Origin: Halobacteriales archaeon
GTDB taxonomy: Archaea > Halobacteriota > Halobacteria > Halobacteriales > SKSH01
DNA length: 64,000 nt
Direction: 5' to 3'
Assembly (NCBI GenBank): GCA_007118145.1
Contig: SKSD01000001.1
Span: 1 to 64,000, forward strand
Shown: in pieces, positions 7,256-48,670 of the stretch
Position numbering within the stretch: position 1 is the stretch's first letter
How the letters are laid out: each line of letters starts with the position of its first letter
The notes under the pieces: generated by a model
What the model was told of the DNA's origin: nothing
The model's database searches: none
What the model saw: only the letters and a program-made list of their open reading frames with translations
Position numbers and translations under genes: made by a program

Positions 7256-9757
7256 ATGGCGATGAACGAGACATGTCCGTTGTGGCACCCAGGCGAGTGT
7301 ACGGGGACACCGGCGTGTCCACCACGGTGCCCACGCTTCGCGACGGGCGATGGGTCGCGGTACACGATCCGTCCGGTGCGCCTTGAGGGTCGACGCCTCG
7401 AGGTGCGTGATGAAGACGGTGCGGTCTGCGGGCGTGCGTTCGCACCGGGTGGGGCACCCGCACACGTCGAGGTGGCCAGCGAGGTACAATCCGAGGTGGC
7501 GGCTGAGGTGATACGACAGGTGGTCGCCCACGCATATGCTCGCGGTGAGGATGCCATCGAGGTGGTGGCCACGGCCGATGCGGTCACACATGTTTCTAAA
7601 GAGCTGGGCTCGGCGGCGAGGAGTGACGGCGCGTCACTGCATGTGACGCTCGACACGGAGACGGTGGCACGGCTTTTGCTACCACCGGCACGGTACGCAC
7701 CGGTCGGTGCACCGACTGGCCTTGATGCACTGGTCGACCCGGCGACGGTGGCGGTCATCGGTGCGACCGATCGCGAGGGGTCGATCGGCCGTGTCCTGCT
7801 TGAGAACCTGCTGGCGACGTTCGATGGCGAGGTGATTCCGGTTCATCCCACAGCCTCGACACTGCTCGGTGTCGAAGCGATGAAGATGGACGAGTTGGGC
7901 AGATATTCACCCGATCTGACCGTGATAGCTCTCCCAGCTGATGACGTCCTCGATGGGGTCCGCTGTGCGCTCGATGCTGGCACATCTGCGATTGCGATTG
8001 TCTCCGCAGGGTTCGGCGAGGCAGACGAGGTCGGTGCACGCCGTGAGCGTGAGTTACGCGATCTACTGGAAGGACACGAGGTGACGGTCATCGGGCCGAA
8101 TGCACTCGGCGTGGTGAGTTCACGCCGCGGGTTGAACGCGAGCTTCGCACCGGTGATGCCACCGGACGGTGGTGTCTCGGTCGTGAGTCACTCAGGAGCG
8201 ATGATCACGGCGATACTTGACTGGTTACATGGCGCCGATATCGGCATCCGTGACGTACTCTCGCTTGGTAACACGGTCGACCTCGAAGTTCCCGAGGTGC
8301 TTCGGTACTGGGGGCACGACCCCGAGACAGACGTCATCGTGGCCTACCTCGAGGACGTCCGCGATGGCCGTGGCTTCGTCGAGGCAGCACGTGACGTGAC
8401 GCCGACGACGCCCGTGATCGCGATCAAAGGTGGTCGGACCGAGGCCGGGTCGGCCGCGGCTGCCTCACATACCGGTGCGCTCGTCGGTGATGTGGCAGGC
8501 TTCGATGCAGCGTTCGACGCGGCGGGCGTCGTGACGGTTGACGGTCAGCAGGCGCTGTTTGACGTGCTACAGGCGATCGACCGCCAGCCGGTTCCGACGG
8601 GTTCGCGACTGGGGGTGGTGACGAACGCGGGCGGGCCGGGTGTCCTCGCCGCCGATGCGGTCGCGGTGAGCAGGTGCGACCTGGCCGGTTTGACCGCTTC
8701 GACGCTCGAACGCCTCGGTGAGACACTCCCCTCGGCTGCCACCCCTGGCAACCCCGTCGATGTCCTCGGTGATGCCGATATCGACCGTATCACCTCAGCG
8801 CTCGAGGTCGTCCTCTCCGATGGCGGTGTCGATGCGGGTATTGTGACGACGACACCACACCCGCTGATCGACCAGGGAGACCTCATCGATGGTGTCGGTG
8901 ACGTGGCAAGGCGGTATGGCAAGCCGGTCGTCATCTGCCTGGGTGGGCGTACGCCCTCGGTGTCGGTGGCACAGGCTGCACGTGAGGCATCCGTCCCGCT
9001 GTATCCCGATATCGCGAGGGCGGTATCGACACTCGCCACACTGGCACGATACGGTGAGGTGCGCAGACGCCCGCGGCTGACACCGTCGCCGGTCTCGGTC
9101 GATGTCGAGCGGGTGACATCGGTGCTCGAGCTGGCCGAGGGGAACACCCTCGGCGTCGAGGCATCGGGGCTGTTGGAGGCGTACGGTGTCTCGACGCCGT
9201 GGTGGAAGGCCTTCGATAGGGAGGATGAGGTCGACCACGCACTCGAGGGTCGCGCGGGGCCGTTCGTCTTGAAGCTGGCCAGTCTGGCACACAAGACCGA
9301 GGTAGATGGTGTGGTCACCGGTGTGATGGCCGATGAGGTACCTGCGGTGGCTGACGAACTGCTCAAGCGTGGCGATACGGTAATCGTCCAGGAGCAGGTC
9401 GAGGATGGTATCGAGGTACTCGCCGGTGTCACGACCCATCCACGCTTCGGCCCGGTGTTGACCGTCGGTCTCGGCGGGACATTCGTCGAGCAACTCGATG
9501 ACGTGCAACACGCACTTGCACCGGTGACACACCCCGAGGTGGAAGACCTCCTGGGTAATCTCGATGCTGCCTCGCTCATCGAGACCGGCCCTCGGGGTGG
9601 GAGACCACCCGACCACGATGCACTTGTCGATGCGATCGTCAGGGTATCACAGCTGGCGAGCGATATCGACGCGATAGGCGAACTCGAGGTGAACCCACTC
9701 ATCGCCACCGCCGAGGGTGCGTTCGCGGTCGATCTGGTCGCCCAACTCACGGATTAA
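7256..9757 (+). CDS. Acyl/acetate-CoA ligase (ADP-forming), fused alpha-beta, with Cys-rich N-terminal extension
   Basis: The 833 residues divide into an extension of about 140 residues with four cysteines near the start (C7, C15, C21, C25), a CoA-binding domain (VAVIGATDREGSIGR), a ligase-type domain carrying the phosphohistidine motif SHTGALVGD, and a C-terminal ATP-grasp domain (GVEASGLLEAYGVSTPW). ADP-forming enzymes of this type make ATP from acetyl-CoA or other acyl-CoAs in archaea, and alpha-beta fusions are usual in haloarchaea. The first Cys cluster may bind a metal; I infer this only from spacing. The start offers two ATGs two codons apart. It forms a single-gene unit. Confidence 0.9.
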   Translation: MAMNETCPLWHPGECTGTPACPPRCPRFATGDGSRYTIRPVRLEGRRLEVRDEDGAVCGRAFAPGGAPAHVEVASEVQSEVAAEVIRQVVAHAYARGEDAIEVVATADAVTHVSKELGSAARSDGASLHVTLDTETVARLLLPPARYAPVGAPTGLDALVDPATVAVIGATDREGSIGRVLLENLLATFDGEVIPVHPTASTLLGVEAMKMDELGRYSPDLTVIALPADDVLDGVRCALDAGTSAIAIVSAGFGEADEVGARRERELRDLLEGHEVTVIGPNALGVVSSRRGLNASFAPVMPPDGGVSVVSHSGAMITAILDWLHGADIGIRDVLSLGNTVDLEVPEVLRYWGHDPETDVIVAYLEDVRDGRGFVEAARDVTPTTPVIAIKGGRTEAGSAAAASHTGALVGDVAGFDAAFDAAGVVTVDGQQALFDVLQAIDRQPVPTGSRLGVVTNAGGPGVLAADAVAVSRCDLAGLTASTLERLGETLPSAATPGNPVDVLGDADIDRITSALEVVLSDGGVDAGIVTTTPHPLIDQGDLIDGVGDVARRYGKPVVICLGGRTPSVSVAQAAREASVPLYPDIARAVSTLATLARYGEVRRRPRLTPSPVSVDVERVTSVLELAEGNTLGVEASGLLEAYGVSTPWWKAFDREDEVDHALEGRAGPFVLKLASLAHKTEVDGVVTGVMADEVPAVADELLKRGDTVIVQEQVEDGIEVLAGVTTHPRFGPVLTVGLGGTFVEQLDDVQHALAPVTHPEVEDLLGNLDAASLIETGPRGGRPPDHDALVDAIVRVSQLASDIDAIGELEVNPLIATAEGAFAVDLVAQLTD

Positions 9758-44686: not shown

Positions 44687-45193
44687 TCACTCCTCGACCG
44701 GTGCGAGGTAATCCTCTTGTACCTCGATAACACCGGTCGAATCCGCACACGTCGCATAACGACGAAGTGGCTCCTCGTTGAGCGTCAGGAAGGTCGAACC
44801 CCATCGAAACGGGGCCATGATCGACGCTGCACGCTCGGTATCGCCGAGGATGGCATACCCGGCTGCGATCGCCTCCGCAGTCGTCAGCTGGAATGGCCGC
44901 CCGTAGTTGACCGGGTTCGCCGCGACGAGGAACGGCAGTGCGCGGTGGGAACCCACCATCTCCTCGAGGATGCGTTCGGCTGATTCCCACGAGCAATCGA
45001 TCCCGATGAGCGTGTCGAATTCACCATCCATATCGGCAGGCGAGAGCGCCTGCTCGGCGAACGGGTTCAAGACGATCCCCCGCGGTAACGTCCGTGGCGA
45101 GCGATGGAGCTCGATGAGACCGAACCGCTCGAGTCGCTTCGCGGTGCACTTTGCGGGATCGTCATCACCCTCGTAAAATACGTGTGCGTTCAC
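44687..45193 (-). CDS. tsr3: Tsr3/DUF367 aminocarboxypropyltransferase
   Basis: The sequence ([63 protein letters not shown]) is the DUF367 pattern. Tsr3 adds an acp group to small-subunit rRNA using SAM. No ATG is in place; GTG 45193 gives the start [12 protein letters not shown]. It lies 50 bases before the L40e gene on the same strand, so the two are probably one unit for ribosome function. Confidence 0.88.
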
Positions 45194-45321
45194 TCGTATG
45201 AGGTAGGCCAACCGTGATGAAAAGTTCGCTGGTTGGGTAATCGACCTCTCTCGGGTCGATGTGACCACCAGGAAGGTGCGCCCGCCGCCTGGGCACATGC
45301 CGATTCTTGTGACGGGCTGGC

Positions 45322-47067
45322 TCAAGTCTCGTGGATGCGCTCACCACGGCTGAGACGTTCGGCGATGGTGAATGTCTGTTCACCCGACCGCCTGGTGGGT
45401 GTGTGTGCTGCGAGATACCGCGTGGTGGCGATGAGGTGTATATCCGCACGTTCGTCTGGTGTGGTTCTGAGGTACTGGGTGAACGCAGCCTCGAGGTTCT
45501 GCCTGGTGTGAAAGCCAACATCCTCACGCAGAAGAACCGTCCCGAGTTCATTCATCAGTGCCGCGACCGATCCATCGGCAGCGAGATATTCAGCAACGAG
45601 CCTGCCAGAACGGTTGACTTCCTCGTCCGATTCGACCTCGAACGTCTCGAGCAATTCCTCGAGGATATCATCAGGGTGTCGATCACCCTCGGGTTCGGGC
45701 AGACGCTGCGGAGGTGTGTTCAAAAAGCGGTCGAGATAGATCGCCATGGCCCCGTCGAAGAGTCCGCGATATGCTTCAACGGCAGATGTCCGCTGTGTCA
45801 GGCTATCGACTGCGTTGAGGTACGTATACGTGTGATGGACGGTATTCCAGTCGTTGAACTCATTCGCCGTCCCGAACTGTGCGACACGTTGCGCCCCGGC
45901 GTCTGTGAGGATGCCAGCCAACTGACTCGCTGTGGCACCGTCTGCGATCGCGTCGGTGAGCGCGTCAATGATCGCACCTGGGTCGTCACCGAGGATGACA
46001 TCATAGAACCCGTCGGGTTCCGTCCATTGACGTCCCTCACCCGCCTCGACCAGCGAGTCAAGCTGCTCTGCCGCATCGAAGCACATGGATGCCAGATCGA
46101 TGGGTTGGCGCCATGCTGAGCGTTCCTCTGCGCGGTCGGCACCTGCCAGGCCAGGTACGAGACTGGGGAGAACCTGCTCAGCGTGATCCCATCCGATATG
46201 ATCGAGCATCTCGAGTGCCTTGTTGATGAAGTCGATACGGTGACCGGCATCCAGGTAGAGATGATCCGTCCCGGCGGCGACGAGTATCCCTGTGATCGTA
46301 TCCTCGTCCAGACCTGCCCGGATGGCTGCCCTGATGATCCGCTCACCACCGTCATCGTCTCGTACATCGATACTTCGTCTGAACCATCGCTTCAGACGGT
46401 CGGACGAGACATCGGTGTTCGACAGCGATTCCTGGCTGAAAAACGGTGCCTGTCCGGCACTGTCATCTGCGACCTCTGACAGTCCAACGAACAGTGCTCT
46501 TCGTCGATCATCTGGTCTGAGATGTTCCAGCAGGTTGGCCATGACTCCGAGGGTCGTCAACCCACTCCCCCAGCCAGCCTCACGGTACATCGTACCGAAT
46601 CTAACACCTATCTCGAGTGGTACCGTCGCCTCGACCGCTGCATCATCGAGGCCGATGACGGATTTGGCGATGATGAGGCTGATATCCTCTCGCAGCCCGT
46701 GTTCGAGGCGTTCACGCCAGTGTGTCTCATCATCGTGAGTCTGCACCGGTTCGGGTGAGACGTAGACCGAGCCATTTCGCACCTCGACCGGATAGGTGGG
46801 TACGTCATCGGCAAAGGGATCGAGGGTATCACCACACGAGAGTTCGAATCGGGCGTGATGCCAGGGACAGGTGAGGATTCCGTCCTCGACGGTCCCATCG
46901 GTGAGTGGAAACCCCATATGTGGACACCGAAGATCGGTCGCGTAAAACGCATCCTCGTGATGGAACAGTCCGATCGCCCGCCCATCGATGGTCACCACGG
47001 TCGGACTCTCTGCTTTTGCGTCCTCGACACTTCCAACCCTGACGAAGCCCTCGGCAACCTCGCTCAT
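45322..47067 (-). CDS. Rieske domain fused to a duplicated helical domain, unknown function
   Basis: Residues 1-110 are a Rieske-type [2Fe-2S] domain: C48, H50 (CPHMG) and C67, H70 (CPWHHARF), with a ferredoxin-like end. The remaining 470 residues are helical and acidic. I see two related halves: [20 protein letters not shown] followed by [13 protein letters not shown], and [19 protein letters not shown] followed by [13 protein letters not shown], with several His/Asp residues that could hold a metal. Related Rieske proteins are known in bacteria, but their job is unknown to me. It stands between Tsr3 and SerRS as a separate unit. Confidence 0.8.
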
Positions 47068-47233: not shown

Positions 47234-48616
47234 CTATGCCTTCCGACCGGCTCCAACGGCACTCTCACCGACGGGATCGTGTCCCTCGATGACCTCTTGA
47301 CCATCCAAATATGGACGGAGTACCTCGGGGACGGTGACCGTGCCGTCGTCGTTCTGGTAGTACTCGAGGATGGCGACAACCGTGCGTGGCAGTGCGATAC
47401 CTGACCCGTTGAGTGTGTGCAGGTAGTCCGCAGATTCGTGTCGCTCAGCCCGATATCGCAACCCTGCCCGTCGCGCCTGAAAGTCACCGAAGTTCGATAC
47501 ACTCGATACCTCGAGCCATCGACCACCAATCTCGGGTCCATCGGGCATGTCATCAGCCGGTGCCCACACCTCGATGTCGTACTTCTTCGCCTGTTGGAAC
47601 CCCATGTCACCCGTACACATGTGCAGGACCCGATAGGGGAGTTCGAGGCGTTTGAGCACCTCCTCGGCCTCCTCACGCAGTCCCTCGAGACGCTCGAAGC
47701 TCTCTTCCGGCCGGACGAAGTTGACGAGTTCAACCTTGTTGAACTGGTGTACGCGTACATATCCGCGTGTCTCGGTTCCGTGCTCACCCGCCTCACGACG
47801 GAAGTTTGGGGAGAACGCCTGGTGCTTGATCGGGAGATCGTCGTCAAGGAGGATCTCATCTCGGTACATGTTGGTCACCGGTACCTCTGCGGTGGGTAGT
47901 AACCAGAGGTCGCTATCGTCGTATGGCTCATCATTGGCACCACCGATGCGGTAGGCGTCCTCGACGAACTTCGGGAACTGTCCCGTGCCCCGCATCGACG
48001 CACTGTTGACGGCTATCGGTGGGAACACGTCGGTGTACCCCTGCTCGCGGTGTAGGTCGAGCATGAACTGGATGAGTGCGTACTCAAGACGTGCGCCATC
48101 GCCCTTGAGGAACTGAAAGCCACCACCGGCCACCTTCGCGCCACGTTCGAAATCGATAATCTCGAGCTCCTCACCGAGGTCGTAGTGTGGGATCACCGGA
48201 TCTGAAAGTTCACGGGGGGCGTCGAACCCCCAGCGATCCACCTCGACGTTGTCCGTCTCATCCTCGCCCACGGGGACGCTCTCGTGGGGGATGTTCGGCA
48301 GCTCGAACAGTGCCGCATCAAGCTCTGCCTCGAGTGTGTCAGCCCGTTGTTCGACCTCCTCGAGCGATTCCTTGAGTTCACCCGAGCGTTGAATATGTTC
48401 CTGCGCTGCCTGCTCATCACCGGCGCGTTTGAGCTCACCGATCTTCTCGCTGATACGGTTTCGTTCGTGGCGCAAGGAATCTCCCTCGGCTTTCAGCTCT
48501 CGCCACTCCTCGTCGATGGCGAGGACTTGATCAAGGTCGATCCCCTCGACACCCTTCACCTCGATGGCCCACCGCACGCGCTCTGGCTCCTCTCGTAACA
48601 CGTCACGATCGAGCAT
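47234..48616 (-). CDS. serS: Serine-tRNA ligase (class II)
   Basis: The N-terminal coiled-coil arm (residues about 30-110, [33 protein letters not shown]...) binds tRNA-Ser. Class II motifs follow: [39 protein letters not shown] and [20 protein letters not shown]. Bacterial-type SerRS are usual in haloarchaea. Length 460 residues. ATG 48616 ([15 protein letters not shown]) is chosen. Confidence 0.96.
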
Positions 48617-48670
48617 TGACTTGCATTCGCTACCACCTGGGTACACAAAAACCGTATCGCTTGTCGCTGT

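Follow-up and report, generated by a model that had tools for sequence, protein, structure and literature searches.

A haloarchaeal Rieske protein with an all-helical, putatively questin-oxidase-like C-terminal domain as a candidate non-classical oxygenase

One gene of the window (the whole 64,000-nucleotide stretch of DNA that was analysed) encodes a protein in which an N-terminal Rieske [2Fe-2S] domain is fused to a C-terminal domain that is predicted to be all helical and carries a set of invariant histidine, lysine and acidic residues. We give an even chance to the reading that this is a self-contained, single-chain Rieske oxygenase whose catalytic domain is non-classical and questin-oxidase-like, that is, an O2-activating redox enzyme. 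It is probably an oxygen-using enzyme that is built like the classical Rieske oxygenases and not descended from them. In the mechanism that we infer, the N-terminal Rieske cluster would accept single electrons from a ferredoxin or flavin reductase of the cell and hand them on to a mononuclear non-heme iron located in the C-terminal domain. H276, H412 and H520 would be the ligands of this iron, with H555 and K135 as possible additional ones, and in its reduced state the iron would activate O2 for the oxidation of a small organic substrate.

Results

The gene and its Rieske domain

The gene is present in a single copy in the source draft genome and lies between two genes on the same strand, named here from a reading of their sequences: upstream lies a seryl-tRNA synthetase-like gene at 47234-48646, and downstream a Tsr3-like gene at 44687-45325 that overlaps it. 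The features of the gene and its product are collected in Table 1. Homologues are currently annotated merely as 'Rieske (2Fe-2S) protein'. The protein is soluble, consists of a single chain and has a mass of ~65 kDa, so testing it should be easy.

Table 1 Features of the gene and its product, with positions in the window and residues of the 581-residue protein
Feature	Position	Strand	Basis or remark
Whole gene, 581 aa	45322-47067	-	Start ATG at 47067, stop 45322-45324
Rieske [2Fe-2S] domain, residues 9-93	46789-47043	-	PF00355, E 3.8e-15; Foldseek to Rieske ferredoxins
First cluster motif, C48-P-H50	46918-46926	-	59/59 homologues
Second cluster motif, C67-P-W-H70	46858-46869	-	C67 and H70 in 59/59 homologues
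All-helical C-terminal domain, residues 106-581	45325-46752	-	Without Pfam/NCBIfam family; best structural match 8yxs
Helical unit 1, residues 113-205, with invariant K135 and W166	46453-46731	-	Model helices; hhalign with unit 3
Helical unit 2, residues 222-311 (first repeat of the earlier note)	46135-46404	-	hhalign with unit 3
Helical unit 3, residues 348-450 (second repeat of the earlier note)	45718-46026	-	hhalign
Helical unit 4, residues 463-557	45397-45681	-	Model helix order; hhalign with unit 3; weak
Lys135, invariant	46663-46665	-	59/59; candidate metal ligand (possibly carboxylated) or second-shell residue, putative role
His276, invariant, candidate metal ligand	46240-46242	-	59/59; in register with H412
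His412, invariant, candidate metal ligand	45832-45834	-	59/59
His520, invariant, candidate metal ligand	45508-45510	-	59/59
His555, near-invariant, candidate metal ligand	45403-45405	-	58/59

The protein is a member of the Rieske [2Fe-2S] domain proteins, with the ligands C-x-H ... C-x2-H present in a Rieske fold. An earlier note on this DNA, made from the sequence alone, had described the Rieske cysteines and histidines as intact; C48, H50, C67 and H70 are indeed present and do not vary across the 59 distinct homologues. The nearest named families and solved structures for the N-terminal domain are the ferredoxin subunits of aromatic oxygenases, and a Foldseek search with the full-length model matched it to the Rieske ferredoxins 5bok, 2de5 and others with TMt values of 0.83-0.87, reaching up to 0.88 among Rieske ferredoxins. 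An unusual stretch, T81-x-D83-x2-A86-D87-D88 (window 46801-46830), follows the Rieske motif in the chain and is invariant in archaea and bacteria; it might form a contact with the helical domain.

Families searched with the C-terminal domain and its distribution

Residues 106-581 matched no Pfam or NCBIfam family, either for the window protein alone or for 23 members, and a PDB sequence search with the same residues up to E 10 gave chance matches only. No dioxygenase catalytic domain was detected in residues 106-581 by the Pfam/NCBIfam searches and the model of this region is all helical, in line with the view in the earlier note that the Rieske domain has a helical partner and not the usual dioxygenase catalytic domain. 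Weak Pfam matches to carboxymuconolactone decarboxylase/AhpD (PF02627) appeared in 3 of the 23 members (E 0.047 at best), a family with a helix spacing similar to that of the C-terminal domain; this candidate was rejected, as hhalign comparisons of all four helical units (described below) with 24 haloarchaeal candidate CMD sequences stayed within the shuffled range. MgsA_C likewise gave weak matches in 3 of the 23 (E 0.013 at best), and was absent from 31 related genomes.

With the C-terminal domain as the query, 44 of 98 related genomes were positive, as were 15 contigs of named haloarchaea and 24 plasmid records from haloarchaea, cyanobacteria (Aulosira, Nostoc, Gloeothece), Microvirga, Sinorhizobium, Paraburkholderia, Priestia and Metabacillus. 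In a sample of the phylum 10 of 197 genomes were positive, all 10 from the window's own order (haloarchaea, according to the named records), and the viral contigs searched contained no relative. The C-terminal domain together with the Rieske domain is widespread among haloarchaea and occurs also in cyanobacteria, rhizobia, Burkholderiales and Bacillales, which bears out the statement that similar bacterial proteins exist, and a quick tree separated the archaeal from the bacterial sequences in two groups. Haloarchaea are mostly aerobes, as are most of the named bacterial hosts, which favours an oxygen-using enzyme. Although the searches used the C-terminal domain alone, all 59 distinct homologues that were extracted keep the Rieske ligands. 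The fusion is therefore obligatory among these proteins, and the two domains work together and form one unit. The homologue of Halosimplex pelagicum has an open frame that stops after about residue 436 (contig NZ_CP058909.1, ~8994-8996); in a tblastn search, however, one alignment stays in this frame as far as residue 580, which points to an in-frame stop, arising either from a recent pseudogene or from a sequencing error.

Invariant residues of the C-terminal domain

Conserved in 59/59 homologues are K135, W166, H276, D279, N282, E315, W319, R394, N402, D406, W407 and H412, and equally R447, N450, E515, H520, R550, Y551, R560 and R571. H555 is kept in 58 of the 59, the remaining one having Gln. 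This exception, the homologue of Natronorubrum halalkaliphilum, is a natural test of whether H555 is an essential ligand. The earlier note had spoken of conserved His and Asp residues, and invariant His, Asp, Glu and Lys residues are found, including the candidate metal ligands of Table 1; conservation does not extend to every residue of the stretches that it quoted, for H269, which lies in one of them, is replaced in rhizobia and Burkholderiales.

A degenerate array of four-helix units

The last 470 residues had been described by eye as two similar halves. A self-alignment, which had been proposed as one of the checks, yields nothing significant when the two halves are compared by BLASTP (best E 0.95), so a profile comparison was needed, and this does find a duplication. 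With hhalign, residues 222-311 aligned to residues 348-450 with a probability of 89.4% (P 2.1e-6, score 37.2); among 60 column-shuffled control comparisons the maximum score was 21.0, none of them (0/60) reaching the score of the true pair. H276 is aligned opposite H412, and each of the two opens the third helix of its unit. The two quoted stretches are truly alike. They are not halves of the protein, however: what is repeated is a stretch of four helices, ~75-100 residues long, and the two stretches appear to be two of about four such units.

Comparisons of unit 1 with unit 3 (P 7e-4) and of unit 3 with unit 4 (P 4e-3) gave weak matches, each exceeded by 0 of 60 shuffles, and the unit pairs 1-2, 1-4 and 2-4 did not beat all 60 shuffles. 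Because of these weaker matches and the order of helices in the models, we suggest a degenerate array with about four units of four helices each, in which the repeat is clear twice and probably occurs four times. H520 lies at the start of a helix of unit 4, a placement that resembles that of H276 in unit 2. Unit 1 has no histidine; its W166 is in register with W407, not with H412.

Predicted fold and structural matches

AlphaFold2 was run on a shallow alignment of 15 fairly similar sequences, all archaeal, and gave a pLDDT of 83.0 for the whole chain. A structure search with the full-length model returned solely Rieske matches among the matches listed, and the C-terminal domain was therefore modelled separately, with a pLDDT of 86.5 and a pTM of 0.88 (the five models range from 64 to 86 in pLDDT). 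The models of this domain are all helix and lack a beta-sheet helix-grip core. In a Foldseek search against 350,542 PDB chains the first rank was taken by 8yxs, a non-heme iron dioxygenase of Aspergillus brunneoviolaceus solved by X-ray crystallography (probability 0.99, E 0.04, TM 0.41/0.43), matched over nearly the whole length. BTG13 H58F (7y3x) was found at rank 15 in the same search (probability 0.66, TM 0.37/0.39), and nearly all of the remaining PDB matches listed had TM values of 0.09-0.20. Against a viral library the C-terminal model matched uncharacterised helical proteins (probability 0.92-0.99, query TM 0.29-0.32), mostly over about half the length.

Kinship with questin oxidase (BTG13) had been proposed from the pattern of His and Lys residues before any model existed. 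The advance proposal and the two later matches, both to a single small group of enzymes, make a good case for kinship of fold; the match is nevertheless suggestive and not proof, because its E-value is weak (0.04) and because the viral library was also matched. On the basis of the predicted model, we regard it as fairly probable that the C-terminal domain is related in fold to the questin-oxidase-type dioxygenases 8yxs and BTG13. The idea of a new metal or redox enzyme, raised in the earlier note, remains the best reading and, since the best structural match is a non-heme iron dioxygenase, it gains specific candidate relatives of moderate strength in 8yxs and BTG13.

Gene context

No constant neighbour, reductase or pathway gene is conserved beside the homologues. 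The gene lies next to seryl-tRNA synthetase and Tsr3 in the window and some relatives, in a dnaK/grpE/dnaJ region in others, and elsewhere in further contexts. These varied surroundings without a constant partner fit a stand-alone enzyme, and the context names no pathway. On four Haladaptataceae plasmids the gene is directly 3' of a regulator gene of the AsnC family (in one of them a small gene intervenes); class I ribonucleotide reductase genes are downstream in 3 of the 4, and hemH, hemG and hemE are nearby in two. Four bacterial plasmids carry an alpha/beta hydrolase gene up to ~2.5 kb upstream, one of them annotated as a meta-cleavage product hydrolase, and short-chain dehydrogenase genes are found near the homologue in cyanobacteria and Priestia.

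Discussion

Alternative explanations

Several other explanations of this architecture have to be weighed against a single-chain oxygenase. The internal helical repeats, the generic likeness to helical repeat proteins (viral helical proteins at a probability of up to 0.99 and weak MgsA_C matches in 3/23 members) and the closeness of the Rieske domain to Rieske ferredoxins would all suit a C-terminal domain that is a scaffold, docking a Rieske ferredoxin domain onto a partner enzyme, with the whole protein acting as a specialised electron carrier. We think this unlikely, as a scaffold would not lead one to expect more than 20 invariant polar residues set in motifs (among them K135, H276, H412, H520, D279, E315, D406 and E515) and shared by archaea and bacteria, which is typical of an active site, nor is a partner enzyme conserved in the neighbourhood. 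The C-terminal domain may instead bind a metal or cofactor in a protein that is a sensor, a redox regulator or a redox enzyme other than an oxygenase, for instance a reductase or a peroxidase. Such a role would agree with the patchy occurrence of the gene (44/98 relatives), with its usual position as a stand-alone gene, and with its place behind the gene of an AsnC-type regulator in Haladaptataceae, but the Pfam/NCBIfam searches found no DNA-binding or signalling domain and the best structural match is a dioxygenase, so that we assign this role, too, a low probability.

That the protein is a classical Rieske non-heme iron oxygenase, so strongly diverged that its catalytic domain merely went unrecognised, is very improbable and has been largely refuted. 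The classical alpha subunits, too, start with a Rieske domain and continue with a large one, and Rieske oxygenases do occur among the Foldseek matches, through the Rieske part. Nonetheless, the modelled C-terminal domain is helical throughout, without the beta-sheet helix-grip core; neither PDB nor Pfam yielded a match to the catalytic domain of a Rieske oxygenase; and the motif D/E-x2-H-x3-5-H is missing.

A questin-oxidase-like oxygenase remains our preferred reading. Somewhat more tentatively, the family could represent a second kind of Rieske oxygenase, assembled independently of the first, in which the Rieske domain is permanently fused to a questin-oxidase-like helical domain and the catalytic iron is bound by invariant histidines, perhaps together with a carboxylated lysine. 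To our knowledge, a single catalytic fold is common to every Rieske oxygenase that has been studied. If the proposal is true, evolution has coupled a Rieske cluster to an electron-accepting mononuclear iron at least twice, in catalytic folds that are not related, and a comparison would become possible of how the fold and the ligand set steer the activation of O2.

Comparison with known systems

By sequence and structure, the N-terminal domain is closest to the Rieske-type ferredoxins, such as those of naphthalene, biphenyl and carbazole dioxygenase and of toluene 4-monooxygenase. These ferredoxins are free-standing proteins of ~105 residues, whereas the domain described here is always fused to a partner of 470 residues. 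With the alpha subunit of the classical Rieske non-heme iron oxygenases the protein has in common an N-terminal Rieske [2Fe-2S] domain, a large domain in the same chain with conserved His and acidic residues, and likely the same electron path. The catalytic domain of the classical enzymes is of the helix-grip (START-like) type, in contrast to the all-helical and unrelated domain here, and D/E-x2-H-x3-5-H, which forms part of the 2-His-1-carboxylate site, is absent from the window protein. The protein is therefore not a member of the classical Rieske oxygenase family, because its catalytic domain differs and the ligand motif is absent.

PF14027, the questin oxidase family, including 8yxs and the BTG13-type fungal enzymes, had no match in the window protein or in the 23 C-terminal domains at E up to 10, and none over the cut-off in 394 genomes of the phylum or in nine bacterial plasmids; a literature search likewise found no paper naming questin oxidase together with Rieske. 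The fungal chains of 8yxs and BTG13 have ~440 residues and no Rieske domain, unlike the Rieske-fused protein here, and they show no detectable sequence relation to its C-terminal domain. BTG13 reportedly binds iron through four His and a carboxylated Lys, and its ligands are said to include an early His (H58) and a late Lys (377), whereas the invariant Lys of the present family is early (K135). What the C-terminal domain shares with 8yxs and BTG13 is a predicted all-helical build that, as in those enzymes, carries several conserved His and one Lys.
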